The notes under the pieces were generated by a model. That model worked only from the letters and a program-made list of their open reading frames with translations. It was not told the DNA's origin and searched no databases. DNA of 64,000 nt, from positions 67,183,486-67,247,485 of the forward strand of contig CM061134.1 of NCBI GenBank assembly GCA_030789695.1, in the 5' to 3' direction. Below are positions 1 through 56,205 of this stretch, piece after piece. Position 1 is the stretch's first letter; every line of letters begins with the position of its first letter. The DNA is from Scilla litardierei. Its lineage: Eukaryota; Streptophyta; Magnoliopsida; Asparagales; Asparagaceae. A program made the translations under genes and the position numbers.

Positions 1-1381
1 GACGGGCAGATACCTGACGGCGACCAAAAGACGTAGACTGACGTGAGGCAGAGGTGGTGCCGCCAGGTAAGGTCGAAGATGTGCTGGCGGCAGTGGTCAT
101 GCCAGCACAGGAGACAAGGCCAGAAATGGCCGCAAGGAGGTGCTCAGACGTGATCGATCCCGGAGCAGAAACGGGACGACTCGGGCCAGCCCCTAAATCT
201 CCCCCAGACGCAGGGATATCCTGCTCGCCTAAGTGGGCGGCAGGGGACGGTGATCTGCGGGCGTCTGCGGGAAAGAAAGGAAGATTCAACCCAGCTAAGA
301 AATCGGGATCAGGAGGGAAAGTCCAATCTCCCACGAGAGCAAGGGTCATGCGAGCGGGGTTGGGCAGAATGGTGTAAGGGGCTGGGGGTTGGCCATAATG
401 AAATATGAAGCGGCCATCCGAGCGGGGTTTGATCATGTGGATGTGCCGCAGGACATCAATATCAAGATGTGAGGGTCCTGCGGCAGCATGAAGATTACCG
501 GGGATGGTAATATTGAATTGGGCGTGAGAGCAGATGATCGTGATGATGCCCCCGCAACAAAACTTCCCCTTACCGGCCCGGCTGATCTTGAGTAGCTTGT
601 AAACAAGCCAATCGCCGCCATGGATGGGGACGGTAGGGGCCCTGAAGCTAACTCCATCATCATCCCGGACATAAGGAAAAGTCATGGCCCAAAGGATAAA
701 AAGGTCAGGGATAGTCACAGTGCCTGACTCGTCCCTAGGAAAGAATGTAGATGAAATGATTCTGTGGGCCAATCGAAACACGGGATGAATGATGGAGGAG
801 GCCTTGGCCCTTCCTCGGGGGTAGTCGCGGATTAGCGTGAGGCGGAACCAGAATTGATCGACATCAAACTCGGGCGTGTACCCGTAGTGTCGGATGGAAT
901 CATCCCCGAGATTGGGGAAACCAAATATATCGTTAATCGTGTTCAGGTTCGTGGTGACACTACGGTTACGCACCCGGAATCGAATGATCGACCCGGACTC
1001 CCAGACAAGTGTAGAGAGGAATTCGAGTGTGAGGGCCGGGTAGGATATGGCATGTGTATTAAGAAAGGCTAACCACCCTAAGTTAGCGAAAAGAGATTCG
1101 ACCTCGGTGAAGACACCGAGATCGACAAGTGTACGTGCGTGCGGGAACTTGGTGGATAGATGCCCTCGAGCATCAAGCCTACGGTAAAAATCTTTGTGCT
1201 CCTGGTTCCGAAAAATATACCCGTGTGGGCCCAACATTGGGTCCACAGGGGGAATAACAGGTGGAGGAGGGCCAAGTGTAAGTGCTCGTGTACGGGAATG
1301 GGGACGTGTTTGTTTTCGTCTCTTTCGAGACGGCTCCTCTTCCCTCATGATACCCTTCCCCTTATCCTTATCTTTATCCAT
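1..1381 (-). CDS. ORF3 of GYPSY-A (plant retrotransposon accessory ORF, C-terminus outside window)
   Basis: An open frame of 460 codons runs from ATG at 1381 to the window edge without a stop. The N-terminus is very basic (MDKDKDKGKG, then SRKRRKQTR), resembling a nuclear localisation signal. The middle resembles the ORF3 core of GYPSY-B2: a stretch on sequence being read as the end of a gene front (EFLSTLV), then FWFRLTLIRDYPRGRAKASS, HPVFRLAHRII and IPDLFILWAM. The part nearest the edge becomes rich in P, S, A and G. The family matches the Athila ORF1 / putative gypsy-type transposon proteins of plants, whose function is not established. A 17-bp TG/CA tract touches the start codon. It is the least broken ORF3 in the window. 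I infer a nuclear protein, possibly DNA-binding. Env-like use is an alternative, but I see no signal peptide or membrane segment. Confidence 0.75.
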   Translation of the reverse strand, partial: MDKDKDKGKGIMREEEPSRKRRKQTRPHSRTRALTLGPPPPVIPPVDPMLGPHGYIFRNQEHKDFYRRLDARGHLSTKFPHARTLVDLGVFTEVESLFANLGWLAFLNTHAISYPALTLEFLSTLVWESGSIIRFRVRNRSVTTNLNTINDIFGFPNLGDDSIRHYGYTPEFDVDQFWFRLTLIRDYPRGRAKASSIIHPVFRLAHRIISSTFFPRDESGTVTIPDLFILWAMTFPYVRDDDGVSFRAPTVPIHGGDWLVYKLLKISRAGKGKFCCGGIITIICSHAQFNITIPGNLHAAAGPSHLDIDVLRHIHMIKPRSDGRFIFHYGQPPAPYTILPNPARMTLALVGDWTFPPDPDFLAGLNLPFFPADARRSPSPAAHLGEQDIPASGGDLGAGPSRPVSAPGSITSEHLLAAISGLVSCAGMTTAASTSSTLPGGTTSASRQSTSFGRRQVSAR

Positions 1382-1849: not shown

Positions 1850-2195
1850 GAACCGATCGGGTGACTTGTTACCCGATCGGTTGACTGTTAGGTTGAAAAT
1901 CTTGCCGAAGAAATGCTACAGGTGAACCGATCGGGTGACTTTTCAACCGACCGGTTGGCCGCTCCACACAATTTCCCGAGAACTTAGGGCTGCTCACCCG
2001 GTCGCGTCAACCGATCGTGCTAGAACTCAACCGATCGGTTGATATTCCCCAAGATTTCCCGAGAGTTCTCCCCAGCTCACCCGGTCTGCCACCCGGTCTC
2101 TTCATTACTCAACCGATCGGGTCATATGGGGACAGATCTCGGCATGTATCTGATACGTCCCAACCGATCGGGTGAGTTGTCACCCGATCGGTTGG
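1850..2195 (-). promoter_or_regulatory. Internal palindrome array (CCGATCGG type) of GYPSY-A
   Basis: At least eight sites of the type CAACCGATCGGTTGA or TCACCCGATCGGGTGA occur here, several of them one base degenerate (CGACCG, CGGTCG). Neighbouring centres within pairs are 20 bp apart, for example 1856 to 1876, 1930 to 1950, and the last pair near 2170 and 2190. The same motif fills the LTR upstream of its TATA box (15175-15545). The array sits between the end of pol and the ORF3 TATA box, so it looks like an internal enhancer for ORF3. It contains CGGTTG, which fits plant MYB cores, so a host factor is a possible binder. Confidence 0.75.
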
Positions 2196-10870: not shown

Positions 10871-11199
10871 ATTCGACACTTCCTGACCATTTGTCGGGAA
10901 TGAGCCGTAATCGTGCCTAAGTCGGATCCCCCTTTTGGGGATTCTTCTGCAAATTATCATCGCCGGCTCCCGTATGGATCCAGGCGTTTCCCCACGTATG
11001 AGAGAATTTTGATGCAGACGACTGTTGTTTGGCCCCGTATGGGCTAGTCGGCACGTTCATGTTCAACCAAGGCCTTTTGCCGAATTGGTCTTCTTCACTC
11101 CCGGCCAGTGCCGATCAGTCCGGCCCCCGGCCAGGCCCTGACCGCTGCCAGAGACGGCCTGCGGCAGCCCTGGCCACTGCCAGGACCGGTCTGGCCGCT

Positions 11200-11700
11200 G
11201 GCCTGGCGTAGGCCAGAGGCCCCTGGCCGGGGCCAGGGCCCCTGCCCTGGCCTCGGCCAGGGCGGCCAGGCCCTGGCCTCGGCCAGGGCGGCCAGGCCCT
11301 GGCCTGAGGCCAGGGCGCCGCCCTGGCCTCTGCCAGGGCGGCCAGGGTGGCCAGGCCCCTGGCTTGAGGCCAGGGCGCCGCCCTGGCCTCTGCCAGGGCG
11401 GCCTGGCCCCTGGCCTGGGGCCAGGGCCCCTGCCCTGGCTCCGGCCAGGGCTGCCAGGCCCTGGCCAGAGGCCAGGGCGCCGCCCTGGCCTCTGCCAGGG
11501 CGGCCTGGCCCCTGGCCTGAGGCCAGGGCGCCGCCCTGGCCTCTGCCAGGGCGGCCTGGCCCCTGGCCGGGGCCAGGGCCCCTGCCCTGGCCCTGGCCAG
11601 GGATGCCTGGCCCTGGCCTAGCCGTGGCTGGCCAGGGCCGGTCGGCCATGGCCCGGCCATGGCATATTGGCCTTGACCGGCCATGGCCCTTTGGCCATGG
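11200..11700. repeat. GC-rich minisatellite in the COPIA-4 leader
   Basis: About 500 bp built almost only from CCTGGCC and GGCCAGGG blocks. The segments 11281-11340 and 11341-11400 align as a 60-bp period, and others run 50-61 bp. GGCCAGGGC-GCC-GCCCTGGCC units make the tract self-complementary. Long open frames on both strands here are an effect of the repeat and its composition and are not genes. Confidence 0.9.
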
Positions 11701-15155: not shown

Positions 15156-15545
15156 TATATATAGGCCGTCACATCAACCGATCGGTTGACAAGTCAACCG
15201 ATCGGTTGATCCGTTACAAATAAATATCAGAAAACGGCGAGTTTTCACCCGATCACATGAACCGATCGGGTGAGTTCTTGAGCGACCGGTTGGATCTTGG
15301 AGCGGTCGGGTGAATCGGCCGGTTCGACGTCCGTGTCTTCAGCTCATCTTTCTCAGCTACAGATGAACCGATCGGGTGAGAGTCACCCGATCGGTTGGCG
15401 CTTTGCTTCGAGAAAACAGAGAATAGCCCCCGCTGAACCGGTCTGTGAACCGGTCGGGTGACTTCGTTGTGAGCTGTGGCAGAGACCGATTGGTGCACGC
15501 GTGCATCACCCGATCGGTTGGAGATGACCAACCGATCGGGTGAGG
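15156..15545 (-). promoter_or_regulatory. LTR palindrome array (CCGATCGG type) and TATA box of GYPSY-A
   Basis: TATATATA (15156-15163, minus) lies 11 bp from the first CAACCGATCGGTTG site. About a dozen sites follow to 15545, some degenerate (CGACCG, CGGTCG, CGGCCG). Common centre spacings are 20 bp, with 13 and 22-24 also seen. It is the same motif and a similar TATA distance as the internal array at 1850-2195. Confidence 0.8.
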
Positions 15546-15788: not shown

Positions 15789-17954
15789 GTGCACGACATT
15801 CATAAAATAGGAATTCATGTATGCTTGTTTTTCATGCATGTTAGTGTTCTTCGGGCCCCAAATTGTGAATGTCTTGGGAGCCCTATTCATATTGGGAGCA
15901 TGCATACGTTGTTGATGTCTACGTGATGCATGTGGCCTATGAGGAGGTGGCCTAGGAAATGCATGTCGTGGATAAGCATAAGGCACAAGATGAAATGGTG
16001 GTGGCATCATATGATATGGTGTATGATGGTAATTGTTCATATGATAGTGATGTGGATGAACATATGCATGTGGAGGAACACGTGCGTGAGTGTGTCTCAC
16101 TTGGTGTGCACGTGCTCATGGACGTGGAGCATAAAAATCATCATACGTGTGAACATATGGAGTAGGAGGTGTGTTCCTATGTGGCATGGTATTGGTGTAC
16201 ATAAATGCATAACCTTTATTTGGAGGTCTACCCAAAGTGGGTTTCTTTCCAAACAGGGGTGTGTACCTAGTGGAAGCACCATTGGTAGATGAACTACCCA
16301 TAGGGTGTTTACTCCCACTAGTTGAGGCATCGAAAGTTGGCCTTACAAAGGTGGTGGAAGATTTGGATGAATTTCTCATTTTATACCCTAAGCCAATACG
16401 ATGATTGGCCGGAAGTAAGTCATTTAGGATATTATCCAAATGGTCCTTACCTTTATTGAATTTATTAATTCGGCCTAATGTGGACTCATACTTCTCGGTG
16501 AGAGAAAGTATTGAAGTATCCAAAGTGGACACTTGAGTTGTGAGTACACAAACACGAGACTTGAGATTCTCATTCTCAATATTCAAAGTTGAGTTTCGAG
16601 AAATCAAATCCGCCATCTCGCGTTCATCCGAATTCTCAATATGAACATGCTCAAGTTGAGAATTGAGATTTACAATCTCATTTCTCAAACCTTCAACAAC
16701 GGTGTCGTTGTTGATGATGATAGGCTTAGGCGAGGTTTGGAGACTAGTTAGCTCATCTTTAATCTTAGTATATCTATTTACTAATTTTGAATACTTCGAT
16801 CAAATTTGTTCGTTAGCTAATCTAAGGTCATCAATCGTTACCTCATCACCTTCATCCTCGCTTTCATCGGAGGAGGTCTCTTGTTCATCATCCGACTCTC
16901 CACTTGAGGAGTCCTCTTTGGAGTCGGTGAATGTGCCGACAAATCCTTTCTTGTACACTTTCTTGTACTTTCTAGACTTGTCGAACTTTGGCGCCTTCCA
17001 TTTCTCATTTTGTTTGTTTTGAGGACAATCCGATTTGATGTGTCCTGGCTTGTTGCATTTAAAACACAAAGGAGCAGAGGCGTTAGTAGAACTAAATTTA
17101 GATTTGTTCTTGAAGTTACCTTTTCGGAAGAATCGGTGGAACTTCTTTGCCATGAAGGCAATGGATTCTAAGTCCAACTCGTCTTCAGATTCTTCATCAT
17201 CGGTAGATGTAGATGGAGCGGCCTTGAACGCAATTGCCTTTTTTTTGGCTCGTCTTGCTTCAAGTACGACTTCATCTTATCCTGCATCTTTATTTTACTG
17301 TACTTGCGTACCTCATAAGACATTAAGGTACCCATTAGTTGATTGACAGTATATTTATTCATATCGTTAGCTTCCTCGATGGCGAAGGTACGCTTTTCCC
17401 AACAAGAAGTAAGTCTCCTTTTGGGTGTAAGTCTTTCCAAGAGCTTCCAATTCATTGGTAATGTCAACGAAGCGAGCATAGTACTCCTTCATCTTCTCAC
17501 CCTGTTGCATGTGAAATAATTCGAATTCTTTATTTACAACAGTGAGTTTGGAGTCTCTTACCCTACTCGTTCCTTCATGCAAGATGAGGAGTGAGTTCCA
17601 GATTTGATATGCACTCTTACATGTGCATATCTTGTTGAAGTCTTCGGGCTCCAACGCACATTGCAAGGCATTCATTGCCTTGGTATTGTTTAACTCCGCG
17701 GTGACCTCCACGGTAGTCCACTTAGCGAAGTCTTCTTCATCGGGCTCGACATACTCCGTCAACGTGCCTCTCCATAGTGAAGTGCTCCGGAGGAAGGTTT
17801 CCATCCGACATTTCCAGTACCCGTAATTGGTACCGTTGAAGTGAGGAGGCCTAGTTGAAGAGTGTCCTTCCATCACCGAAGAAGCTCCTTCACGGTTCTT
17901 GAAGGTGTTATAGTCTGAAGGTGGACGAACGTTCTTATTGTCGTTGGTAGACAT
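15789..17954 (-). pseudogene. gag: gag of COPIA-2 (frameshifted, His-rich tail)
   Basis: Start MSTNDNKNVRPPSDYN at 17954. A UBN2-type gag core follows (HFNGTNYGYWKCRMETFL, EYVEPDEEDFAKW, NKICTCKSAYQIWNSL, FHMQQGEKMKEYYARF). A deletion and frame change near 17400 remove a short segment before KRTFAIEEANDMNKYT. Next come the CCHC knuckle CFKCNKPGHIKSDCP (near 17060-17020), an acidic serine stretch, a coiled-coil-like region (16690-16400), FGKKP, and a tail extremely rich in His, Pro, Tyr and Met (16100-15830). One in-frame stop lies near 16800 and several frame changes exist. Sequence stops at the GYPSY-A junction. Confidence 0.85.
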
Positions 17955-17967
17955 AGCTATGAACTTG

Positions 17968-17979
17968 GCTCTGATACCA
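17968..17979 (-). other. Primer binding site (tRNA-iMet) of COPIA-2
   Basis: TGGTATCAGAGC on the minus strand, two bases inside the LTR that starts at 17982. Confidence 0.9.
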
Positions 17980-18148
17980 AATGTAATGCCCTGATAGCTA
18001 CTGCACAAGTACTAGAGGGGGGGGTGAATAGTACTTTAAAATAATCAAGATAATTATTCCTAATTATTGTGCAAACTCAACCAACAATGCGGAATGAAAA
18101 TATGACAAATAAGAATTAAGCAATGTAAACAAATGATCTAACGGGTTC

Positions 18149-18357
18149 GGATCCACCCAAGTCTCCCCGACTTGTTCCCGGTGATCCTACGTCCCAAACA
18201 CCCGGATCCCCTCCGGCTACTTGAGTTAGAATCCTCTAACCCAAGTTTTGCACTATGAAATTCTTGTAGAAAACCTCTACAAGATCAAATCATACACAAA
18301 ACGAAATGTGACTCCCACAAACCGGGATCACAAACTTCTCTCACAAACCGAGAGAAA
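18149..18357 (-). other. Six-hairpin leader of COPIA-2 LTR
   Basis: On the minus strand, in order: CTCTC-GGTTTGT-GAGAG, a GATCCC/GGGAGTC hairpin with the same GGTTTGT loop, CTTGTAG/CTACAAG, CTTGGGTTAGA/TCTAACTCAAG, CCGGAGGGGATCCGG, and GGATCACC/GGTGGATCC. The COPIA-1 leader (33000-33204) has six hairpins in the same order with different paired bases, and the solo LTR (29192-29402) shows further paired changes such as CTTGTGA/TCACAAG. Confidence 0.75.
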
Positions 18358-18707
18358 AACTTGCAATATCAATGTAAATATGAAATATAAACACTTACCA
18401 CAAAACCCTATGCCTTGAGTAAAACTTACAGATTTTAGGTCAAGAAGGATTTTGGTGAAGAAGCAAGCACCAAACCCTAGCTCCACCAAGATGACCAGCA
18501 ATAGGTGGCTAGGGAGCAGTTGGTGACTTGGATTCAAGCTCCTAGCTTCAGTAGCTCACAATCAATGAGAATATCTCTTGAGTAATAAGAGTGAGGGAGA
18601 GATTCTTGTGAAGAAAGGAAGCTTGGAAATAGGAATTAAATGCTCTTTCTTTGATTCTTAAATTCTCAATAATATTAGCCTTTATTGCTATGAAGAAGCA
18701 TCACAAG

Positions 18708-19309
18708 TATATATAGGATAGAGAGAAGAGAGAGGGAAAATTCATGTATTTAATGCTCCAACGGCTCTATTCTGAAGCAGTCTAATCGGTCTAAGAAGGA
18801 TCACTGACCGATTAATTTTGCAACTAGTCGGTCGGTGATTCTTCTTGGACCGACTAGATGGTTCACAGCCAAGAAGGAGAATTTCAGGAGATAGAACTAG
18901 TCGGTCTAAGAAGACTTGCCAATCGATTAGTTTGACAACTAGTCGGTCGGTGAGTGTTCTTTTACCGACTAAGAGTTGAAAATCAATAGGCTGAATTCAA
19001 GGAGAACTAGTCGGTCTAAGAACAAATTTCAACTGACTAGTTTCACAACTAGTCGGTCGATGAATGTTCTTGGACCGACTAACTAGTCAGCAGTAGCTAG
19101 GCTGGAAAATGAAGGCATAACTAGTCGGTCAAAGAAGGATTCCTAACCGACTAGCTTGACAACTAGTCGGTCGGTGAATCTTCTTGGACCGACTAATTGG
19201 TCAATAGTGCCTAGGCTGAATTGAGCAAGGAGACCTAGTCGGTTCAAGAAGGATTCTTAACCGACTAGATGACAATCTAGTCGGTTGGTTCTTCTTCTTG
19301 AACCAACTA
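18708..19309 (-). promoter_or_regulatory. LTR half-site tetrad array and TATA box of COPIA-2
   Basis: The TATA box TATATATA is at 18708-18715 (minus). Upstream are five tetrads between 18783 and 19309 of the form TAGTCGGT-16-ACCGACTA-10-TAGTCGGT-16-ACCGACTA. All fifteen spacers have exactly these lengths although their sequence varies. Distances between tetrads vary. ACCGAC equals the core of plant DRE/CRT elements, so DREB/CBF binding is possible. Confidence 0.85.
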
Positions 19310-19708
19310 AGATGCACCAGAAGCCGCGAAATGAAGCGTAAAGCTTCAGGAAAGATTCTATGGGCTTCTACGATAATCCTAGCTCTAAGATATGAGCGTT
19401 ATGAAGATTATAATGTAAGACCTACTCAAGGCTTAACATTCTACGAGAAGAAGCTAGAAGACTATAAAAATAAGCTAAACGAACCGTCTTCAAAGCTTCA
19501 ATCTGAATCTCTTGACTTCAATAATGCTCCTAGAGCTTCAACGAAGCTTCAGGCACACGATCACGCGCTTTGAGAAGACTTGAGACGTCGCTTTTGATGT
19601 ACGTAGAATTTTGGCAACGATCTCCATAACTGTGCTCACAAGGAGTTAGTTCACGATATTTATGTTTCCTCATCATCAAAACCAAATCCGGGGAATCAAT
19701 ACTCAACA

Positions 19709-20704
19709 GAACATTGTTGGAGCACACACACAGACATCTCTTCATTTCAATCTTAGGATATCATTAGATCAACCTTCCTTAGACTCCAATTCATTTCTAT
19801 CTAGATTGTAGATGTCATGTTTAAAACAGTCGACTGCTGAACGTTTTACATTCGCATATATCAAAACATTCGACTGTGTTTTGTTCTACAGTCGCATGTT
19901 GTGCATAACTTTTCTGTCTAGTTTTGGGCTTCTTAGCTTTAACTCTCACATGCGACTTATGAATGCTTCACAGGCGCCTGTCCCAGTGACAATCGACTGT
20001 GTTTTGTTAATCAGTCGCATGTCTATCTTTAGCCCAAATTCTATTTCTTGGTTTAATTTGGCCAGTCGACTTGTGTTGGATTTACAGTCGACTGTCAATG
20101 CTACAACAGTCGTCTATCTTTGAGTCTATTTGATGACTCAACTCTCTGGAAAATCTCAGGGTTTTGACAGTCGTTTGTAGAAGGAATTACAGTAGCCTGT
20201 TCAGATTAACAGTCGACTATCTTCTCTTCATCAGTCGTCTGTCCTATTCTCCCAGACGTTTTTCAGATTTTATCAACTTACGGCCAGTCGCCTATAGTAG
20301 GATTTACTGTCGCATGTTGGTTCAGCAGTCGATTGTCTATGCATCATCAGTCGACTGTCCACATGGTAAGTTACCGTTATGAATTCTCACCTACCCTCTG
20401 TCACTGTGCATCAGTTGACTGTGATTTATTCAACAGTCGATTGTCACAGGCGCAGATTCTTTCCATTGAGTCTTTCCTTACGGATTTCAAAGGGGTTTTT
20501 GCTGATTTCATTTGAAGGGTTTAAGAAACCTATAAAAGGAGCCTCTACTGTTTCATTGAGAGGTTACTCATTTTGCATAATCATGTCAAGCTTTCATTCT
20601 CTCAAAATCAAAGCTCTCAAATCCTAAAGCCCTAGAATTCCAATCTTCAATCTCTTGCTCTCCAACCTAGAAACAAAGAGAAATCTTTTAGGCATTTGGT
20701 GCAT
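19709..20704 (+). repeat. 5' LTR of COPIA-1, middle part (array and TATA)
   Basis: Matches 47365-48381 of the 3' LTR. Contains the CAGTCGACTG array (19826-20444) and TATAAAA (20531-20537). Relative to the 3' LTR it lacks one 12-bp site plus its 8-bp spacer near 20097, a clean 20-bp indel. It ends at GTGCA (20700-20704), the TSD of GYPSY-B1. Confidence 0.9.
19826..20537 (+). promoter_or_regulatory. LTR palindrome array and TATA box, COPIA-1 5' LTR
   Basis: Twelve-base sites of the ACAGTCGACTGT type in groups with 10-nt outer spacers, as in the 3' LTR copy, followed about 87 bp later by TATAAAA. Many sites carry single changes (ACATTCGCATAT, ACAGTCGTCTAT), showing decay since insertion while spacing is kept. 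Confidence 0.8.
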
Positions 20705-22523
20705 GATCGCTCCGGGACGTAACCCAAAAGAACGGTTGTATTTTTACCTCAAGTGCACGGTGTAGCAGCGAGCGGGTTATCGAACACAGGGAGGATGAAT
20801 GACCGTGCTTGCTCCGATCAACCTGGCTATTTAAGAAGAGAGAAATTTGCCTTTGGCGATCCTGTCACAATCGTCAGACAAAGTACGAAAATATCAAATC
20901 AAATAAAGAACGTCTAGGGAATGGGGAATTCCCGCTACTCACCGTATTTCGTAAAGTGGTTCATTGGTATCAAAGTTGCTAGAATAAGATTTCGGATGAA
21001 CTAGTTGCAACTGAATGTAGAACCAAGCTCACGCTCTCGCGCTGTTGCCGGTCTATAGCTATCCTAGGCTCGGGCCCAATCTCTTGCAAACCCTAGCCTA
21101 GGGAAGCTAGCATTAGGATCAACATCATTGTTCAATCGCGCACCGAGCCCAATCTCTTGTAAACTCGGCCCGCGACCTAGATTGGGATAGTTCCTACCCG
21201 TCCAATCTCTTGCAAACGGGTATTGGCACGGAATTGGAACCGGAAACCCTAGTATCGGTCCAATCTCTTGCAAACCGACACTACGGAAATTCTATTCCAA
21301 CCCAATTCAGATTTCTAGGGTTTCCTATCGAATTGGGATCCAATCTCTTGCAAATCCCAATCGATGCGAATTCCTAGCCATCCGTAGTAAATCGATCCCA
21401 ATCTAATCCCTAGTAGCAATTCTAGCAAAATTCCTACCAATTCATCACAATAATGAAATAGGGCTTGTAGGGTTCATCCCCACGCCCCTAGACGTGGCGA
21501 CTACTCACAATTCATAGCGAGATCACAAGAATAATCAATGAAATAAGCAATAGAATTCATCACAATATTGAGATATGCAATAAAAATAGAATTTTTAGAG
21601 AAGAGAAAAGCAAACCAATGGAGTTCTTCAATCAATCCAACAAAAATCCAACTTTGTCTCCTCTTCAATCACAAGAATAAAACTAAAAAGCTAATCTAAA
21701 AAGCTGCAAAAAATCTAAGAGAGAGGCTCTCAAAACTAGGGTAAAAACAGGGGTTAAATAGCCCCCAAAATCGTCCAAAAACTGTGACCAAAATACCCCT
21801 GTGCAGCCTGTTTTCCGCAATTTTCGCTACAGGCAGCGCATCGCACTCGGCCAAGTGACAATAGTCGCTCGGCCGAGTGAAAACCCTGTAATTTTCCAGT
21901 AAGTATCGATCTTCAGGGGTCTTCACTTCGGGGGCGGCTCGGCCGAGTGAGTTGTCGTCACTCGGCCGATGGCTTCATGGTACTCGGGCGGACGGGATTA
22001 TCCACTCGGCCGAGTGGGTCTTCTGAAGCTCAGGCAGCCGAAAAAAAACAGTAACTTGGAGATTTTTGAAGGGCTTCGTCTGGGCGCCACTCGGGCGGAC
22101 GGGGTCTCGTCACTCGGCCGATGTGGTCTCCGTCGCTCGGCCGAGTGCACGTGTGTATCGTGTCTGATCTGGTCGGCCGAGCAGTGTCTCGCTGGTCGGC
22201 CGAGTGGCTCCTCCACTCGGCCGAGTGGGACACAAAAAATGCCCAGATTGCTTATTTTGGCCTCCTCGTCGCTCCTGCGACGTCCGTTCTTCTTCTGCTC
22301 CTCTCCAGCAGCAAAATACCCCTCGGGGAGGTCATCGGTGACCGTCTGGAGTAGGCGTATCTCGAGATCACTCCAAATCGCGCCAAATCACCTGAAATGC
22401 GACAAAAACAACAAATCGTGAAAAGCATCGCAATATCGTCGATATATCGTGAAAAACGTGATTTGGGCGATCTAAATGGCATGCAAACATGCGGTAAAAA
22501 AAGTGTAAAATAAGGAGTGATCA
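20705..22523 (-). repeat. 3' LTR of GYPSY-B1
   Basis: 1,819 bp, TGATCGCTCC to GAGTGATCA. CACTCGGCCGAGTG array at 21844-22226, TATTTAA (21754-21760, minus), and five constant-loop hairpins at 21064-21366. Differs from 31038-32854 by few substitutions and small indels. Confidence 0.93.
21064..21366 (-). other. Five constant-loop hairpins, GYPSY-B1 3' LTR
   Basis: Same five hairpins as 52296-52597, here on the minus strand. The loop is TTGCAAGAGATTGG (one copy TTACAAGAGATTGG). In the second, the arms AGTGTCGGT/ACCGATACT keep pairing through a G-U pair. Confidence 0.85.
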
Positions 22524-25716: not shown

Positions 25717-26015
25717 TTATATAATAAAAGTTACGACTCGGCCGAGTGACTATGTCACTCGGCCGAGTGGGATCAATGGAAAATCCTCCCCGCTTATGCT
25801 TCGGCCGAGTGGCTCAAGCTACTCGGCAAGACTGGCCCTAGGAGCGTATCCGTTTTACTCGGCCGAGTGAAAATATATACTCGACTGAGTAGCAGTTATA
25901 CTGAAATCAAGGAAATAAACAGAGAGTTGGGTACAGTAGACTTCCCTCGTTCGTGAGCGGCTCGGCCGGACGAACTTGTGGACTCGGCCGAGTGACTAGT
26001 ATACTCGGCCGAGTG
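25717..26015 (-). promoter_or_regulatory. Internal palindrome array and TATA box before ORF3 (GYPSY-B1)
   Basis: CTCGGCCGAG sites between 25735 and 26015, many as pairs with 7-8 nt between 14-mers, then TATATAA (25717-25723, minus) 11 bp beyond the last site. Same design as 56206-56563. Confidence 0.8.
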
Positions 26016-26280
26016 AGCCTTGTGTTCTGCTGTTTGTCTTCGTTTGGGCTCTAAACTCTGTCTTTCTTCCTCCCGTCGATTTCATCTTACTCCTAAGCAT
26101 CGAGCGTCTTCCTGGGGCGCTCCTCATCGTCTCGTTCATCTTCCTCATTATGGATTTACCTATCTCCTCTCCTGTCAAGAAAAATAGGACCCGTTATCAC
26201 AAAATTTTTGGAAGAACGACTCGAAACACTAAAAATTTCTAAAACAAAAATAAAGAAAAAGTAAAAATAAAGCAATAACC

Positions 26281-26343: not shown

Positions 26344-29017
26344 TTAATGCGGGATGTTTGGTGCATATGAGATGCACCCATCAAACTTTCCGGGGAGAAC
26401 GCTTGGATTCGGAAGTTGCGGTGGCGTGTTCTCCCGCGGTGGTCTATCGTCTCGAATTGTGTTGGGGGGAGGCTCCCCAAAGCTAGCGTTTGCTCCGGTC
26501 AACGGCTTCACCGGTGACGCCGATTTTCATAGCAGCGGAGCTTTCTTCGGAGACTTTTGTTTCGAGAGCTTGCAGAGCTCTCGAATCCTTGCGACATCAG
26601 CGTCGCCTTCATCATTTTCAACGGAGAGGTCGGGGGAATCATCTATCTTCTCATCTTGGCCTAAATCCGGGCCTTCATCAAAATCTTCATCGAAAAGAGC
26701 GCCAATCGAGTGGGGGATCGCCTCTTCTATCACTTCATCAAGGAGGTCCATGTAGTCAAGTTCCTCGTGGTAAGGCATGTGTTTCATAGCCTTAGGAATG
26801 TGAAGCTCCACCTCGATGTTGCCGACATTCAAAGTTAGGGTACCTTCTCGCACGTCGACAATCACTCCGGTGGTGGCGAGGAACGGGCGTCCAAGTATCA
26901 ATGAAGTATCTCCCTCCTCCTTAACGTCCATGATCACGAAGTCACATGGCAAGCATATTCCCCCCGGGACTTGTAGCGGGATGTCTTCGGCTATCCCTAC
27001 CGGCCTTGTTATTCGCCAATCGGCCAATTGTATCCGCATGTCGGTAGGTTTCAACTTCGTCCCGGTGTTTAGCCTTAAGAACATGGAGAGATGCATGAGG
27101 CTCACACTAGCCCCTAGATCTACCAACGCCTTTTGAAGAGGGACGCCGCCCAAGGTGCAAGGAATCCGAAAACTCCCCAGGTCTTTAAATTTGGCCGGCT
27201 CCTTCTCCCTCTTGGTGAACCAAGAGCCCTCCTCGGCTAGCATAATCTTCTCCTTCCTCTTTCTCCCCGAAATCAAATCCTTTAAGAATTTAGCATATGT
27301 GGGGATTTCCACGATGGCGTCGAGGAAGGGAATGTTGAGGCTAACTCCTCTAAGATACTCGAGAAACTTTGCTAGCCTTTTCTCCATTTTCCCTCTAGCA
27401 AGCCTTTGGGGAAATGGGACCGGTGGCATGAAGCGCCTTTCCTCAATCAATTGCTCCGCTCTAGATTTCTCCTTTTCTTGTGGCTCTTTCTCCTTATCAT
27501 CTTCAACTACCGGCTCAATCGGCTCCAAGCTTTCCTCCACGGGCTCCTCGGTAGGAATCATAGCGGGGGAGGTATCCTTCCCGCCTCTAGTAGTAACGGC
27601 AACTACGGCATTGATGTGGCCGGTGTTGCCCCGTGGGTTTTGCTCGGGTTGCGTCGGCAATCGTTGAGTGTTCCGATTGAGCAACGCCAATTGCTCCGAT
27701 ATTTGAGCCACAACGGTATTAAGGGAGTCTTGCCCCGCCTTCAAGGTAGCATTGACCTTATTTTGCTCGACCATAAACGCCTCCACTCTAGCTTCGAAGT
27801 CGGATCGTTGTTGAGCTTGTGGAGGGTTTTGATTTTGATTCCTCCACCCTTGGTTGTATCCGGGCGGCCTATATGGTGGAACTTGTTGCTTCGGTTGGAA
27901 ATTTTGTTGTGGAGGCCCCCTCGGCGGATAGTGTTGTTGTTGGGGTGGTGGTGGCGGTCGAGCTTGTTGAGGTGGTTGTTGTGGCGGGTTCAAAGCTCCT
28001 TCATTGTTGGCGTAAGAGAATCCGGGATGATTTCTTGTGGCCGGGTTGGCCCAATACCCTTGGTTCCCTGCAACATATTGTACTTGCTCCAAGGATCCTT
28101 CTCCTTGCTCTCCTCCCACATACATGGCTTGAGATTGGTCTTGCCAATCACTCATTTGGTTCGTTGGAGCGGAGGTGGAAGGGGTTCCTTGGGGCTCCGT
28201 GATAAACTTCTCCAGTCTCTCCACTAACTTGTGGAGAGAATCAAACTTGCTTGTGAGCTCCGCTACGGCCTTCGCCTCATAGATACTAGTCTGCTTCAAG
28301 GAGGATGTGGAGTGTCCTCGCTCATCGCCCCATTGTTGGTTGTTTGAGGCCATCTCCTCAATTAGGGCCGTAGCTTCCTCGGGAGTCTTTGACAAGATAG
28401 CACCATTTGCCGCGGCATCAATGATTTTTTTGGTCCCCGGTTGGAGACCGTTGTAGAAGCTATGAACTAGCTCCCAATCTTCTATGCTATGGTCCGGGCA
28501 TTGGTGCTGCAGATCCTTAAAACGCTCCCAAGCCTCATAGAGCGTCTCTTGGGGTCCTTGCTTGAAGGACATGAGAGCGCTCCGGATCTTCACCGTCTTG
28601 GATGGCGGATAGAACTTATCAATGAATGCACTTGCCAACTCGTCCCAAGAGGTGAAGACTCCGTCAGCCTGCGTCCTCAACCAATAGAGTGCCTTGTCCT
28701 TTAGCGTGAAGGGGAAGAGACGCAGTCTGATGGCATCGATGGAGACCCCCGGCATCTGAAATGTGGCGCACTTCGACAAGAATAATTGGATGTGGTAGTG
28801 AGGGTTTTCATGGGCATTCCCATGAAATGGATCCTGCTGCATCAGAACCACTAGTCCAGTCTTTAGCTCGAAGTTCTTGTCAGCCGCCAACTCCGGCACG
28901 GCAATGGATGAGGTCGTAGAAGAGGTCTTAGGCCGAAGCCTATCTCGAATAGAAATTATCCTCGCCATCCTTGCCGCTAATTGGTCCGCAGTTTCCGGGT
29001 TGGTCAAAAACCGCCCT
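26344..29017 (-). pseudogene. gag-pro: gag-protease of GYPSY-B1, main part
   Basis: From the solo LTR junction the frame reads RFLTNPETADQLAARMARI, then the retrotransposon gag core (ALYWLRTQADGVFTSWDELA, FIDKFYPPSKT, TLYEAWERFKDLQHQCPDH), a Q/P-rich linker without a CCHC knuckle, a coiled-coil-like stretch, and an Athila-type aspartic protease with ALVDLGASVSLMHLSM (D-L-G in place of D-S/T-G, usual in this lineage) and SLILGRPFL. The frame holds to 26527, where TGA replaces the CGA found in GYPSY-B2. The original stop is at 26344. With the 30774-30874 segment it is a nearly intact gag-protease broken by one stop and the solo LTR. Confidence 0.9.
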
Positions 29018-30768
29018 TGTAATGCCCTACAAGCTACTGCACAAGTACTAGAGGGGGGGTGAATAGTACTTTAAAATAATAAGGAGTATAATTCCAAATT
29101 AAAGTGCAAACAACTACCAAATCAATTTGCGGAAGCTTAAATTGAATGACAACACAAAATTAACAATGCTAACAAACGATGTTAATGGGTTCGGATCCAC
29201 CCAAGTCTCCCCGACTTGTTCCCGGTGATCCTACGTCCCAACCACCCGGATCCCCTCCGGATACTTAGGTTAGAAACCCTAACCCAAGATTTCCACTATG
29301 AATATCTTGTGAAAAACCTTCACAAGATCAAATCATACATGCAATAGCAAACGTGAATCCCACAACCCGGGATCACAACCTTCTCTCACAACCGAGAGAA
29401 TCAACAAGCAATATAAATGAGTTATATTGAAATAAACAATCTTACCACAAAATCCTATACCTTGAGTTTTTCTTACCCAAATGGTGAAATGAAGGATTTG
29501 AGGAAGATGAAGTCACCAAGACCTAGCACCAAGGAAATGACCAGCAATCGGTGCCTAGGGATGATTTGGAGACTTGGATCAAGCAATAGCTTGAAGAGCT
29601 CACCAAGAACAAGCTTCTCTCTAGATGGATTCTAGATCTAGAAATGAGAGAGAATGGGTTTCTTGTGAGGAAGAGAGCTTTTGATTTGAGTGAGAATAGC
29701 TATTTCTTTTGATCTCAATGAATCTCTGAATGGAAGCTCTAACCTAGATAGAAATGACCTAGGTTCGTATTTATAGGGTCCCATAAAAACAAGTTAGGTC
29801 ATTCACCAACGGATAGAAATCTGGGAGAATTAGTCGGTCAAAGAACAATCACTGACCGACTAGTTCATCAACTAGTCGGTCAGTCAAACAACATGGACCG
29901 ACTAAGTGAAGATCTGAAAAGAAAGAGAATTTCAGACCTAGAAATCTAGTCGGTCCAAGAAGACTTTCTGACCGACTAGTTTCACAACTAGTCGGTTAGT
30001 CAGTGAACGTAGATCGACTAAGAGGCAAAATGAAATAGTCTGAACACAAGTTGACTTAGTCGGTCCAAGAACAAAAGTTGACCGACTAGATTGTCAACTA
30101 GTCGGTCACCAAACGTTCTTAGACCGACTAACGATAAACAGTAGCTTAGGAGAAATTTAGCATGAACAGTAAGTCACAACTAGTCGGTCAAAGAAGCATT
30201 ACTGACCGACTAGTTCACAAACTAGTCGGTCGGTGAGTCAACGTAGACCGACTAACTGTAAACAGTAAAGTCCAAGAAATTAAGGAATCAAACTAGTCGG
30301 TCCAAGAAGAGTTGCCGACCGACTAGATCACCATCTAGTCGGTCAGTACTTGTTCTTGTACCAACTAACATGCACAATAAAGTCCGAATCGAAGCGCGAT
30401 GCTTCGAGGAAGTTAGAATGAACTTGTGCAAGGATCCTAGAGCTACGAAATTAGCGTAATGAAGATAGAAACGTAAGATATACTCAAGGCTTAACATTCT
30501 ATATATCGAAGCTAAAAGACTATAAATAAAACCTTAATAAACGGTCTTCGAGAGCTTCGATTGAATCTTCATAACTTCCAAAACGGCGCAAGAGCTTCAA
30601 CGAAGCTTTAGGCATGAATACGAGCTTTGGGAAGTGTTGAGATGTCGCTTTGAATGTTCTCGTGAAATTGGCGACGTTCTCCAATACTGCGCTCACAAAT
30701 TGTTAGTTCATGGATTATTTATGTTTGCTCATCATCAAAACCAAATCCGGGGAGTCCAATATTCAACA
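29018..30768 (-). mobile_element. Solo LTR of the COPIA-2 family
   Basis: 1,751 bp, TGTAATGCCC to ATTCAACA, flanked by TSD GCCCT (29013-29017 and 30769-30773) in the GYPSY-B1 gag. It aligns with 17982-19708. It has the five-tetrad array (29831-30367), TATAAATA (29768-29775, minus) and the six-hairpin leader (29192-29402). No internal sequence remains, as expected after LTR-LTR recombination. Confidence 0.95.
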
Positions 30769-30773
30769 GCCCT

Positions 30774-31037: not shown

Positions 31038-32854
31038 TGATCGCTACGGGACGTAACCCAAAAGAACGGTTGTAGTTTTACCGCAAGTGCACGGTGTAGC
31101 AGCGAGCGGGTTATCGAACACAGGGAGGACGAATGACCGTGCTTGCTCCGATCAACCTGGCTATTTAAGAAGAGTGAAATTTGCCTTTGGTGATCCTGTC
31201 ACAATCGTCAGACAAAGTACGAAAATATCAAATCAAATAAAGAACGTCTAGGGAATGGGGAATTCCCGCTACTCACCGTATTTCGTAAAAGTGGTTCATT
31301 GGTATCAAAGTTGCTAGAATAAGATTTCGGATGAACTAGTTGCAACTGAATGTAGAACCAAGCTCACGCTCTCGTGCTGTTGCCGGTCTATAGCTATCCT
31401 AGGCTCGGGCCCAATCTCTTGCAAACCCTAGCCTAGGGAAGCTAGCATTAGGATCAACATCATTGTTCAATCACGCACCGAGCCCAATCTCTTGCAAACT
31501 CGGCCCGCGACCTAGATTGGGATAGTTCCTACCCGTCCAATCTCTTGCAAACGGGTATTGGCACGGAATTGGAACCGGAAACCCTAGTATCGGTCCAATC
31601 TCTTGCAAACCAACACTACGGAAATTCTATTCCAACCCAATTCGGATTTCTAGGGTTTCCTATCGAATTGGGATCCAATCTTTGCAAATCCCAATCGATG
31701 CGAATTCCTAGCCATCCGTAGTAAATCGATCCCAATCTAATCCCTAGTAGCAATTCTAGCAAAATTCCTACCAATTCATCACAATAATGAAATAGGGCTT
31801 GTAGGGTTCATCCCCACGCCCCTAGACGTGGCGACTACTCACAATTCATAGCGAGATCACAAGAATAATCAATGAAATAAGCAATAGAATTCATCACAAT
31901 ATTGAGATATGCAATAAAAATAGAATTTTTAGAGAAGAGAAAAGCAAACCAATGGAGTTCTTCAATCAATCCAACAAAAATCCAACTTTGTCTCCTCTTC
32001 AATCACAAGAATAAAACTAAAAAGCTAATCTAAAAAGCTGCAAAAAATCTAAGAGAGAGGCTCTCAAAACTAGGGTAAAAACAGGGGTTAAATAGCCCCC
32101 AAAATCGTCCAAAAACTGTGACCAAAATACCCCTGCGCAGCCTGTTTTCCGCAATTTTCGCTACAGGCAGCGCATCGCACTCGGCCGAGTGACAATAGTC
32201 GCTCGGCCGAGTGAAAACCCTGTAATTTTCCAGTAAGTATCGATCTTCAGGGGTCTTCACTTCGGGGGCGGCTCGGCCGAGTGAGTTGTCGTCACTCGGC
32301 CGATGGCTTCATGGTACTCGGGCGGACGGGATTATCCACTCGGCCGAGTGGGTCTTCTGAAGCTCAGGCAGCCGAAAAACAGTAACTTGGAGATTTTTGA
32401 AGGGCTTCGTCTGGGCGCCACTCGGGCGGACGGGGTCTCGTCACTCGGCCGATGTGGTCTCCGTCGCTCGGCCGAGTGCACGTGTGTATCGTGTCTGATC
32501 TGGTCGGCCGAGCAGTGTCTCGCTGGTCGGCCGAGTGGCTCCTCCACTCGGCCGAGTGGGACACAAAAAATGCCCAGATTGCTTATTTTGGCCTCCTCGT
32601 CGCTCCTGCGACGTCCGATCTTCTTCCGCTCCTCTCCAGCAGCAAAATACCCCTCGGGGAGGTCATCGGTGACCGTCTGGAGTAGGCGTATCTCGAGATC
32701 ACTCCAAATCGCGCCAAATCACCTGAAATGCGACAAAAACAACAAATCGTGAAAAGCATCGCAATATCGTCGATATATCGTGAAAAACGTGATTTGGGCG
32801 ATCTAAATGGCATGCAAACATGCGGTAAAAAAAGTGTAAAATAAGGAGTGATCA
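31038..32854 (-). repeat. 5' LTR of GYPSY-B1
   Basis: 1,817 bp, TGATCGCTAC to GAGTGATCA. Array 32178-32557; hairpin set 31396-31701, where the last loop has lost two bases (CAATCTTTGC). TSD GTGCA follows at 32855-32859. Confidence 0.93.
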
Positions 32855-39143: not shown

Positions 39144-39478
39144 ACAGACAACTGCCTTTCCTTCGACAGTCGACTGCCCTACTCTATCTTCACTGTCAGC
39201 AGACTGTATCTTTTACCCAGGCGACTGATGACGACTTTACAGTCGACTGTTGGCTCAACAGGCGACTGCATTTTAGTCATCAGGCGCCTGTCTATTTAGT
39301 CAATTGTCTCTGTTTTCTCATCAATTTTATTGATTCTCAGTCAGTCGACTGATGAGTATAATGCAGTCGACTGTCTCATGGACATGCGACTGTAAGTTAC
39401 CCAACAGCTGTCTATCAACCTAAGCTTATCTCTTATCACTTCAACCACTCGACTGAATATTGTTCATCAGTCGACTGT
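39144..39478 (+). promoter_or_regulatory. Internal palindrome array (CAGTCGACTG type) of COPIA-1
   Basis: Between pol and ORF3. Two full tetrads of 12-bp sites with 10-7-10 spacers (about 39210-39295 and 39340-39420), plus pairs with 10-nt spacers at 39144-39177 and 39445-39478. This is the same site and the same spacing as in the LTR (47482-48131). I see no clear TATA box before the ORF3 ATG, only a CT-rich leader. Confidence 0.8.
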
Positions 39479-39805
39479 CTCCTATTGTGGCGGTTCGTTC
39501 ATTTGATCTGAGCCGTCGATTCTTCGATCCAACGACACAGATTCATTTGCCCCTTCGTTATTTCAACGAGAAACTTCATTTCAATCTCACTTTTTCTCTC
39601 TCCTCCGATTGAAAAACCCTTCGTCTTCCAGATTCGAACCTTCAGTCGATCGCTCCTTCAGTGATTTTCGTCCTCGCCCTGTCGACTGTGTCGCTCAGAC
39701 CTCGACTGTCTTGTCTGTTCTCTCGATTTAGGTTCGATCTCTATCGTATATCTTCCCCGTTCGTTTCTTGTGTCTTGCTTGACCTAGTTTCTGTCGATCG
39801 ATTTC

Positions 39806-47078: not shown

Positions 47079-48902
47079 TGTTGAGTATTGGACTTCTCCC
47101 TACTTGGTGTTAATGATGAGCAAACATAAATACTTGTGACTAATCCCCTTTTTGCAGTTAATCCATTACCTAAGCTTATTATGAAGATCTATCTGCAATG
47201 GATGAAACGCAAAGATCATTGAAAGCAAATGAAGTGAATTGGATGAGCGTAGATGGTGATTGAAGCTCCTAGAAGACTTCAAGCTCATACGTTGGATAGA
47301 AGAGAGAGTTCATTAAATGTAACTTTCTTGTTTCTCTTCTAGTATGTAGCTTAGAAGTAGAAGTAGAACATTGTTGGAGCACACACACACACACATCTTC
47401 ATTTCAGTCTTATGATATCATCAGATCAACCTTCTTTGGACTCCAATTCTTTTCTATCTAGATTGTGCATGTCATGTTTAAACAGTCGACTGCTGAACGT
47501 TTTACAGTCGCCTGTCTCAAAACAGTCGACTGTGTTTTATTCTACAGTCGCCTGTTGTGCACAAACTTTTTCTGTCTAGTTTTGGGCTTCTTAGCTTTAA
47601 CTCTCACATGCGACTTATGAATGATTCACAGGCGCCTGTCCCAGTGACAGTCGAATGTGTTTTGTTAATCATTCGCATGTCTATCTTTAGCCCAAATTCT
47701 ATTTCTCTGCTTAATGTGGCCAGTCGACTTGTGTTGGATTTACAGTCGACTGTCCAATGGAACAGTTGACTGTCAATGCTACAACAGTTGTCTGTCTTTG
47801 AGTCTATTTGATGACTCAACTCTCTGGAAAATCTCAGGGTTTTGACAGTCGTCTGTAGAAGGAATTACAGTCGCTTGTTCAAATTAACAGTCAACTATCT
47901 TCTCTTCATTAGTCGTCTGTCCTGTTCTCCCAGACGTTTTTCAGATTTCATCAACTTACCCAGCTTACGGCCAGTCGCCTGTATTAGGATTTACAGTCGC
48001 ATGTTGGTTCAACAGTCAACTGTCTATGCCTCATCAGTCGACTGTCCACGTGGTAAGTTATCGTTATGAATTCTCACATACCCTCTGTCACTGTGCAACT
48101 GTCGACTGTGATTTATTCAACGGTCGACTGTTGCGGGCGCAGATTCTATCCGTTGAGTTTTTCCTCATGGATTTGAAAGGGGTTTTTGCTGATTTCGTTT
48201 GAAGGGTTTGAGAAACCTATAAAATGAGCCTCTACTATTCCATTGAGAGGTTACTCATTTTACAAAATCATTTCAAGCTTTCATTCTCTCAAGATGAAAG
48301 CTCTCAAATCTTAAAGCCCTAGAATTCCAATCTTCAATCTCTTGCTCTCCAGCCTAGAACCAAAGAGAAATCTTCTAAGCATTTGGTGCAGTCAAGAGAA
48401 AGGGCTTTCCTCTCTTCCAAGAGAGTCTTTTCAACACACAACACACTTCTCCTTCAAGTTCTACTTCATGGCATAGGTGATGGTAAGTGTTGCTTAATTT
48501 CATATTTCATAACTTTCGTTATTTGATTTAATCTCGGTTTGTGAGAGTAGTTTGCTTGCTCCCAAGTTATGGGAGTCAAGGTCAATCGATTGTATTTCGA
48601 TTTCACTTGTAGGATTGCCACAAGTGGGTTTTAATGAAACCTCAAGTTAGGGTTCTAACTTGAGTATCAGGTTGTTAACCGGGTGGAAGGGAAGTAGGAT
48701 TACCGGAAACAAGTCGGGAAGTGACTTGGGTATTCCAAACCCTTGAAACATCCTTACGTTTGCATTTGTTTCATTTTGGGTTTATTTCTATTCCGCACTA
48801 TTTGTTGGTTAGGAATTTAAACTGGTGTAACTATATTTTTAAATTGCATAAACACTATTCAACCCCTCTTCTAGTGTTTTCCTCATAGCTAGGGACCTTA
48901 CA
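47079..48902 (+). repeat. 3' LTR of COPIA-1
   Basis: 1,824 bp, TGTTGAGTATTGG to GGGACCTTACA, uninterrupted. It preserves the empty insertion sites of both COPIA-2 (AGTAGAACATTG, about 47362) and GYPSY-B1 (TTTGGTGCAGTC, about 48384). Array 47482-48131, TATAAAA 48218-48224, leader hairpins about 48536-48735. Confidence 0.93.
47482..48224 (+). promoter_or_regulatory. LTR palindrome array and TATA box, COPIA-1 3' LTR
   Basis: Five tetrads of 12-bp ACAGTCGACTGT-like sites plus one final pair. Outer spacers within tetrads are 10 nt in every case (eleven counted); inner spacers are 6, 7, 8, 8 and 7 nt. Centre-to-centre distances are 22, 18-20, 22. Sequence between tetrads is longer and variable. 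TATAAAA follows 87 bp downstream. Confidence 0.85.
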
Positions 48903-51144: not shown

Positions 51145-51439
51145 TGATCACTCCATATTTTACACCTTTTTTCCACATGTTTGCATGCCATTTAGATCGC
51201 TCAAATCACGTTTTTCACGATTTATCGACAATATTGCGATACTTTTCACGATTTGTTGTTTTTGTCGTATTTCAGGAGATTTGGAGCGATTTGGAGTGAT
51301 TCTGAGATACACCTACTCTGGAGTGTCACCGAAGACTTTCCTGAGGGGTATTTTGAGATTGGAGAGGAGCGGAAGAAGAAAGAACGTCGTAGGAGCGACG
51401 AGGAGGCAAAAACACTCAGAATGGGCATTTTCAGTGTCT

Positions 51440-55936: not shown

Positions 55937-56205
55937 GGTTATCGCTTTATTTTTATTTTTTTTCATTTGTTTTTGTTTTAGAAATTATTAGTGTTTTGAT
56001 TCGTTTGCCTAAAAATTTCGTGATAACGGGTCCTATTTTTCTTTGACAGTTGAGGAGAAAGGGATACCTATCATTAGAAGGATGAACAAGGCGACGAGGA
56101 GTGCTCCAGGAATGTGCTCAATGCTTAGGAGGAGGATGAAATCGACTGGAGGAAGAAAAACAGAGATTAGAGCCCAAACGAAGCCAAACAGCAGAAAACA
56201 GGATT

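Follow-up and report, generated by a model that had tools for sequence, protein, structure and literature searches.

The U3 region of certain copia and Ty3/gypsy LTRs in this genome carries one and the same array of short inverted half-sites, grouped into tetrads whose internal spacers have a fixed length. The position of the array in U3, its sharing by copia and gypsy elements and the conservation of both its half-sites and its spacer lengths are direct observations. Taken together, they make it fairly probable that the array is a transmissible proximal-enhancer cassette that the superfamilies share and that is recognized by a protein specific for its sequence and probably oligomeric. Regulatory arrays in LTRs were already known; the present one has a fixed internal geometry and extends across two retrotransposon superfamilies.

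The window analysed covers 64,000 nucleotides (positions 67183486-67247485 of contig C5) of a genome of 3,683,941,228 bases in 7,266 contigs. It is filled by nested LTR retrotransposons, and its content is plant-like. Two LTRs of one family carry the array in this window: the 5' LTR of an element (LTR 1) and a solo LTR, bounded on both sides by GCCCT. The element of LTR 1 belongs to the copia class, as a copia gag ORF, reading away from the LTR, and a primer-binding site, presumably for tRNA-Met, were found beside the LTR. An earlier, sequence-only reading had placed the ends of LTR 1 correctly, and its claim of five tetrads per LTR was confirmed by a motif scan and a count of the spacers, on which all tetrad entries below are based (a dot stands for no assigned strand).

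17982..19708, minus strand: copia 5' LTR (LTR 1) with five tetrads and TG..CA ends; the primer-binding site adjoins the 17982 end and the copia gag ORF comes next
17967..17979, minus strand: primer-binding site TGGTATCAGAGCC, read directly as the complement of these positions
17367..18008, minus strand: copia gag ORF (PF14223, E 9.3e-18); the listed start codon falls within the LTR
18710..18715, minus strand: TATA-like box TATATA of LTR 1, 67 bp from the array
18783..18856, dot: LTR 1, tetrad closest to the TATA-like box
18898..18971, dot: LTR 1, tetrad
19008..19081, dot: LTR 1, tetrad
19122..19195, dot: LTR 1, tetrad with four of four half-sites exact
19236..19309, dot: LTR 1, distal tetrad
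19310..19429, minus strand: distal flank of about 120 bp, homologous to gypsy LTRs (z 10.7, 9.0 and 6.5 against three of them)
29018..30768, minus strand: solo copia LTR of the same family as LTR 1, with GCCCT at 29013-29017 and 30769-30773
29770..29775, minus strand: TATA-like box TATAAA of the solo LTR, 55 bp from the array
29831..29904, dot: solo LTR, tetrad closest to the TATA-like box
29947..30020, dot: solo LTR, tetrad
30057..30130, dot: solo LTR, tetrad
30181..30254, dot: solo LTR, tetrad
30294..30367, dot: solo LTR, distal tetrad
47482..48131, plus strand: a different array (cassette B) in a sister copia LTR, made of tetrads of the 12-bp palindrome ACAGTCGACTGT with spacers of 10-(6..8)-10 and with TATAAAA 86 bp downstream

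Both LTRs are in minus orientation, with the primer-binding site adjoining the 17982 end, and the array therefore lies in U3, upstream of the TATA-like box. A pattern search placed such a box 44-67 bp from the array in nine of ten LTRs, and the tenth shows, by eye, CTATTTATAC at the corresponding position. Both features looked for in a U3 enhancer were thus found, namely an array located within the LTR upstream of a TATA-like box and sites that are conserved with respect to their background.

The geometry of the tetrads is remarkably strict. A scan of the window for TAGTCGGT-N16-ACCGACTA, allowing up to three mismatches, yielded 20 places, corresponding to ten dyads in each LTR, and none elsewhere, against a mean of 0.14 and a maximum of 2 in 100 shuffled windows. 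All ten tetrads conform to the pattern 8-16-8-10-8-16-8, so that the constant 16-10-16 spacing proposed earlier holds for 30 of 30 spacers, and the lengths between tetrads do vary, as had also been proposed, from 36 to 50 bp (41, 36, 40 and 40 in LTR 1; 42, 36, 50 and 39 in the solo LTR). Over the whole 3.68-Gb genome, exact TAGTCGGT-N16-ACCGACTA dyads amount to 628,684, compared to 1,428 with N13-15 and 748 with N17-19, and N16 therefore represents 99.65% of the exact dyads with a spacer of 13-19 bp; the possibility that spacers would vary freely in other copies, named beforehand as an outcome contrary to the proposal, did not materialize. Similarly, N10 accounts for 333,463 of the 334,206 cores in which ACCGACTA is followed by TAGTCGGT after N5-15, and the ratio of dyads to cores, 1.9, is consistent with two dyads per tetrad. 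The reversed-pattern controls of these genome counts gave 1, 8, 4, 3 and 132. Inter-tetrad lengths, obtained from 71 neighbour distances among the first 100 cores listed (first 0.75 Mb of contig C1, both LTRs of some elements included), were of 33-35 bp in 11 cases, 39-42 bp in 50 and 49-51 bp in 10.

A systematic sample of 20 stretches of 10 kb from one contig (C1) contained arrays in four of them. When opposite-orientation neighbours with at most one mismatch per half-site and a gap of 0-200 bp were tallied in this sample, all 50 gaps from TAGTCGGT to ACCGACTA were of 16 bp, and the 46 gaps from ACCGACTA to TAGTCGGT were either of 10 bp (26) or of 35-50 bp (20). In five representative arrays, at the same tolerance of one mismatch, the gap from TAGTCGGT to ACCGACTA was 16 bp in 46 instances and 8 bp in one, and two neighbouring half-sites share their orientation. 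Some dyads with a 15-bp spacer were found as two copies of identical letters at element-length distance (for instance, C1:48524338 and 48531637); a single altered dyad is thus no bar to transposition, which counts against the cassette reading. A scan of viral contigs gave three loci with one site each.

The comparison of LTR 1 with the solo LTR revealed how unevenly the array has diverged. Differences affect 6 of 160 half-site positions, 53 of 160 in the 16-bp spacers, 15 of 50 in the central 10-bp spacer, 68 of 156 in the inter-tetrad stretches and 330 of 1,184 in the LTR outside the array; gaps number 0 within tetrads, 3 between them and 16 outside. A comparable contrast was observed between the copia solo LTR and a gypsy LTR (group G2, see below), with 2 of 160 half-site positions and 59 of 160 spacer positions changed. 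In a representative set of 24 tetrads from two copia and three gypsy arrays, from which near-identical copies were excluded, the half-sites are almost invariant: the TA at the far end of the half-site shows T in 95 of 96 and A in 96 of 96, and ACCGAC occupies columns 25-30 in 23 of the 24 tetrads. The notion of free spacer sequence is valid only in part because, while spacers do diverge, column 13 (G) and, in the central spacer, columns 33 (G), 35 (T) and 40 (A) are invariant over the 24 tetrads, and the spacers come from one palindrome. Indeed, the 74-bp core of the tetrad is an imperfect palindrome, where 8-13 of the 16 positions of spacer 1 agree with the reverse complement of spacer 2. Tandem Repeats Finder detects in the LTR 1 array a period of 114 with 4.7 copies, and the tetrads are thus most likely the product of tandem duplication of one palindromic unit of about 114 bp; being diverged copies of that unit, they are not the recent tandem copies with the same spacer sequence that had been considered as a second adverse outcome.

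Few sources must have given rise to most of the 628,684 dyads and, consequently, copy number alone is no proof of selection; the weight rests on a small test with four lineages (two copia and two gypsy arrays) of five tetrads each, paired by index. At least 157 substitutions were counted in 210 spacer columns, accompanied by no change in length, whereas about 7.5 length changes were expected from the indel-to-substitution ratio of the remaining LTR (P 5.6e-4). The inter-tetrad stretches of the same lineages accumulated at least seven length changes (Fisher P 0.002). The pairing by index is uncertain inside the array, which touches the substitution count and leaves the absence of length changes intact. 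That the spacing stays fixed while spacer sequence diverges speaks for a protein bridging the half-sites, and the initial suggestion of a protein complex that reads the spacing is therefore supported, although gene conversion among tetrads could help to maintain spacer length.

The initial view of the array as a copia feature had to be abandoned when it was also found in LTRs of Ty3/gypsy chromoviruses, with 70-73% identity to the copia arrays and in the same transcription orientation. The arrays at loci L004 and L010 are those of the two LTRs of one element and are 99.1% identical over the compared stretch; the LTR of this element starts with TGTAACGAC and ends with GTCGTGACA. The sequence between them (L054) encodes gypsy-type gag, protease, reverse transcriptase-RNaseH and integrase, in interrupted frames, with Pfam matches above the cut-off for RVT_1, RT_RNaseH, Integrase_H2C2, Retrotrans_gag and Ty3_capsid. 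The order RT-RNaseH-integrase between two array-bearing LTRs places this element among the gypsy chromoviruses, with a Chromo match of 21.9 bits that stays below the cut-off of 25.1. By eye, L047 has ORFs resembling those of L054 between two arrays, and L043 has a gypsy-like pol that ends just before an array. On the basis of their flanks, the gypsy arrays were assigned to groups G1 (L010, L043b, L047 and L049), G2 (L016) and G3 (L032 and L043a), the gypsy label of G2 resting on the similarity of its flanks to those of G1 and that of G3 on the adjacent pol ORF; the copia group comprises both LTRs of the window and L041. Three gypsy LTR pairs are 98.4-99.7% identical, indicating that the carriers moved recently.

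The approximately 120 bp distal to the array match in six of the six copia-gypsy pairs compared (z 5.3-10.7), and the distal flank of LTR 1 shows 71% identity over 118 bp with the gypsy LTR L016; towards the TATA-like box, 120 bp of flank gave no copia-gypsy match (z -1.3 to 1.7). Since the copia LTRs do not match each other on the TATA side either (z 1.4), the boundary there is not a clean breakpoint. Outside the array and the distal flank, no match was detected between copia and gypsy LTRs, and the flank is absent from the sister copia LTR that carries cassette B (z 1.3 to LTR 1). Within the array, the four tetrads of G1 correspond to four of the five in copia, the distal tetrad shows clear likeness between copia and G2 (33 and 31 of 42), and in the solo LTR the last tetrad clearly resembles its gypsy counterpart index for index. 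For interior tetrads, a partner of another index often gives the better copia-gypsy match; the inter-tetrad stretches of the distal half of the solo LTR look homologous to those of gypsy (z up to 5.0), albeit not index by index, and those nearest to the TATA-like box show no solo LTR-gypsy homology. The flank, the distal tetrad and the overall similarity thus support descent from one array, with internal reshuffling or homogenization. In a small tree built from ten arrays, the copia members, three in number, cluster together with a support of 0.70; this topology fits one ancient copia-gypsy exchange without proving its number or its direction.

A plausible mechanism for the cassette can be outlined as follows. 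The protein binding each TAGTCGGT half-site would most likely be a host transcription factor in the form of a dimer or a higher oligomer. The centers of the half-sites are separated by steps of 24, 18 and 24 bp, so any two neighbouring steps add up to 42 bp, that is, four turns of 10.5 bp, and average 21 bp, or two helical turns. If the factor contacted DNA 1.5 bp off the center of the half-site, the four contacts would follow each other every 21 bp along a single face of the helix, a model that is a fit and not a measurement. One complex would dock on each tetrad, and the 4-6 tetrads might jointly promote loading of the LTR promoter or maintain it in an open state. As LTRs are copied with the element, any gain in transcription would be inherited; co-expressed elements might have passed the cassette on through recombination or template switching, and those acquiring it would have been amplified, giving rise to several hundred thousand dyads.

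The presence of more than 600,000 exact dyads of one array in a single genome gives this reading some scope. If a host protein reads the array, retrotransposon promoters offer it several hundred thousand candidate sites, and it would be a prime suspect for controlling very abundant elements; if the reader comes from an element, a trans-acting regulator would be serving unrelated elements. In either case, the sequence of the array is a ready-made bait, and its fixed spacing gives clear predictions.

The array is not the only one of its kind. The sister copia LTR mentioned above (approximately 47079-48900) matches LTR 1 at the outer end and in the downstream part and yet carries cassette B, showing that the array can differ while the surrounding copia LTR stays. 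Another LTR of the cassette-B type adjoins the 19708 end of LTR 1, with its array at 19826-20444. Arrays were also sought de novo as 8-mers occurring six or more times within 700 bp; from the hits, which comprised AT-rich and other non-CG repeat clusters too, CG-containing arrays were chosen, and these included cassettes C (CACTCGGCCGAGTG), D (AACCGATCGGTT with its variants) and, at one locus, E (CTCGAYCGAG). Of the neighbour distances of up to 30 bp, cassette B has 34 of 35 at 18-22 bp; all 61 of C lie at 20-23 bp, 16 of the 17 of D at 19-22 bp and four of the five of E at 20-21 bp. Distances of 33-60 bp between groups of sites number 3 in B, 22 in C, 11 in D and 0 in E, and B has one distance of 30 bp. 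At least four other CG-containing arrays, therefore, have a pitch of mostly 18-23 bp, comparable to the mean of 21 bp in the focal tetrad. A TATA-like match lies within 150 bp, on at least one side, in 18 of 20 B-E arrays (on both sides in two, on neither in two), counts that are weakened by the frequency of such matches in AT-rich DNA. It is conceivable, although we put it forward only tentatively, that all this reflects a common geometry of LTR promoters, with CG-containing dyads phased at two helical turns just upstream of the TATA-like box in at least five cassettes of differing motifs, which would behave as exchangeable modules; this promoter grammar would be read by related proteins whose specificities have diverged. 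The modular behaviour, in that reading, consists of one cassette type having moved between copia and gypsy and of sister copia families with different ones.

Turning to the nature of the reader, the array could be a cold/drought response element on which DREB/CBF proteins act through the ACCGAC core, making the elements stress-inducible. Such a role, which had been suggested from the core alone, appears unlikely. The core, in its RCCGAC form, is indeed present and nearly invariant in the half-sites, but it leaves the equally invariant TA at the far end unexplained. CBF proteins prefer the flank RCCGACNT, and the sites, being ACCGACTA, violate this rule. Furthermore, RCCGAC is missing from the consensus motifs of cassettes B, C, D and E in spite of their similar pitch, which, together with the invariant TA, argues against DREB/CBF as the general reader. 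Among known LTRs, those of alfalfa MCIRE contain a putative element with a CCGAC core (PMC5059998), and a CBF-binding site is described in the U3 of tomato Rider, the transcription of which, however, was unchanged by cold (PMC6762207).

A slightly less likely possibility is that a TE-encoded protein binds the arrays and strips them of DNA methylation, as in the VANC anti-silencing system. Here, as in VANDALs, arrays of differing short motifs lie side by side, all five motifs described contain CG, and, according to the available sections of one report, VANC6 motifs are also present in the unrelated TE AT9TSD1 (PMC5735166), a parallel to the sharing between superfamilies. The same sections present VANC motifs as lacking CG and those of VANC21 as arrayed one-way (PMC5735166), unlike the inverted, fixed-spacing sites found here. 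The one full-length gypsy carrier read, L054, lends no support to the element-encoded factor mentioned in the sequence-only reading: apart from an 89-aa ORF in the LTR, no sense-strand ORF of at least 80 aa lies outside gag-pol, two further ORFs (98 and 111 aa) overlap pol, and no TE-encoded DNA-binding protein was found beside the array. Active sunflower Tekay elements are reported to encode an extra ORF (PMC12844716), and none was seen in L054. At L041, the sole copia array locus of the C1 sample, no copia ORF was noticed by eye beside the LTR. In a variant of this explanation, the factor may be supplied by another element.

It was also considered, as a rather improbable option, that the tetrad is selected for nucleic-acid structure, as a long hairpin in the 3' U3 RNA or as a DNA cruciform. 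The ten window tetrads all fold better than shuffled versions (z -6.7 to -13.2); across the 24 tetrads, 81% of cells are paired, and pairing and covariation were reached by 4 and 5 of 500 shuffles and exceed those of all slid versions. Within-tetrad spacer complementarity is also above the permuted value (8.67 vs 8.06, P 0.019), and changes on both sides occur in 13 of 16 spacer pairs, slightly above shuffles. However, no both-side change was found in 16 half-site pairs, so that sequence, and not pairing, is what is conserved there; in 6 of 16 spacer pairs, unpaired cells make up at least half; a palindrome by its nature gives low values for slid versions, and values above the shuffles can arise from relatedness alone. 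In addition, the spacers of the first cassette B tetrad are, by eye, not mutual reverse complements, and the pitch is kept. Folding, permutation and pair counts thus give some signal, absent from the conserved half-sites, and a hairpin or cruciform was rejected as the main explanation.

The idea of a neutral minisatellite, in which an ancestral tandem duplication of the 114-bp palindromic unit took place and the spacing was merely inherited, is already disfavoured and very improbable. It agrees with the repeat period and copy number given above, with the tetrads being clearly copies of one unit and with the few sources of most copies. It does not account for half-sites kept about nine-fold better than spacers in the window LTRs, and also across superfamilies, nor for the absence of spacer indels against the at least seven length changes between tetrads. 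Finally, auxin response factor (ARF) sites, that is, inverted GTCGG half-sites at caliper spacings, can practically be dismissed since, even if the half-sites contain the GTCGG core and the spacing is suggestive, 96 of 96 half-sites have A (AGTC) in place of the TGTC core that ARFs prefer according to the excerpt available (PMC6207667). Considering that DREB/CBF, ARF and TE-encoded readers each fit poorly, a host factor outside the known families considered is favoured as the reader of the enhancer cassette.

A literature search gave no such array or cross-superfamily U3 exchange among the matches listed, as judged by title and opening of the abstract in a corpus that leaves most subscription journals outside, and a literal search of papers for four half-site 8-mers, at least one of which occurs in 1,438 papers, gave nothing apparently related among the 20 matches listed. 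Known systems resemble the array in part. HSFA2 acts as a trimer. In the Brassicaceae, it binds the heat-responsive element of ONSEN/COPIA78 copia LTRs, where short motifs are likewise clustered in the LTR and bound by a host factor, and several copia families have gained clusters; these are, however, single clusters of 4-6 nGAAn motifs, and non-homologous ones arise anew (PMC5059998, from extracts). The array studied here is, in contrast, one array of 4-6 tetrads common to copia and gypsy. MCIRE and Rider share with it a CCGAC core or CBF site in the LTR or U3, but the extracts of these reports describe a putative element or a single binding domain and no fixed-spacing tetrads (PMC5059998, PMC6762207), whereas the focal arrays have mostly 16-20 half-sites per LTR and an invariant TA flank. 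In the Arabidopsis VANC/VANDAL system a motif is also shared with an unrelated TE, but these are DNA transposons with a TE-encoded binder and one-way VANC21 motifs, with no fixed inverted geometry described in the sections available (PMC5735166). LTR swapping in soybean (Du 2010) is cited in the reference lists of two papers (PMC6010443, PMC3701649). In Tnt1, U3 behaves as an evolutionary module of its own, independent of the coding region, within one copia group (PMC1838419); the module described here occurs in copia and gypsy alike.

The tetrad array of the focal copia LTR is accompanied by other arrays of CG-containing motifs, designated cassettes B to E, in which neighbouring sites mostly lie 18-23 bp apart. 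Their locations in the window, and in other stretches of the same genome (L-numbers), are as follows:

Cassette B, arrayed 12-bp palindromes resembling ACAGTCGACTGT: window 47482-48131, 19826-20444 and 39167-39681 (the last assigned on the basis of an 8-mer cluster only)
Cassette C, CACTCGGCCGAGTG arrays: window 21869-22230, 25737-26020, 32178-32558, 51439-51823, 56205-56540 and 61477-61865; outside it, L044, L046, L048 and L049
Cassette D, AACCGATCGGTT and variants: window 1851-2193 and 15245-15545; L036 1685-2052, L040 1075-1412 and L048 4254-4625
Cassette E, CTCGAYCGAG in pairs at 20-21 bp pitch: L036 5819-6280

Cassette B at 47482-48131 and 19826-20444 is organized in tetrads with 10-(6 to 8)-10 spacers and belongs to a sister copia LTR family. 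One LTR of this family, carrying the cassette, adjoins the focal copia LTR from 19709 onward, and the focal LTR is probably inserted into it.

In cassette C, all 61 neighbour distances of 30 bp or less measure 20-23 bp. In cassette D, the sites, AACCGATCGGTT and its variants, are found in pairs at 19-22 bp pitch, and a TATA-like match lies 9-18 bp off the array in each of the five cases.

In the tetrad of the focal array type, columns 14-15 directly follow an invariant G. Of the 24 representative tetrads, 15 carry AA there and the other 9 carry TT, with no mixed case: a linked double change. Among the matches listed for contig C1 of this genome, the stretches between tetrads come in three size classes, with lengths of 33-35, 39-42 and 49-51.

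Other repeat arrays comprise a GC-rich minisatellite at window 11168-11630, made of CCCTGGCC/GGCCAGGG units with periods of 51 and 153, and CTTCAGGC/GCCTGAAG arrays at L035 2961-3465 and L045 2838-3485.
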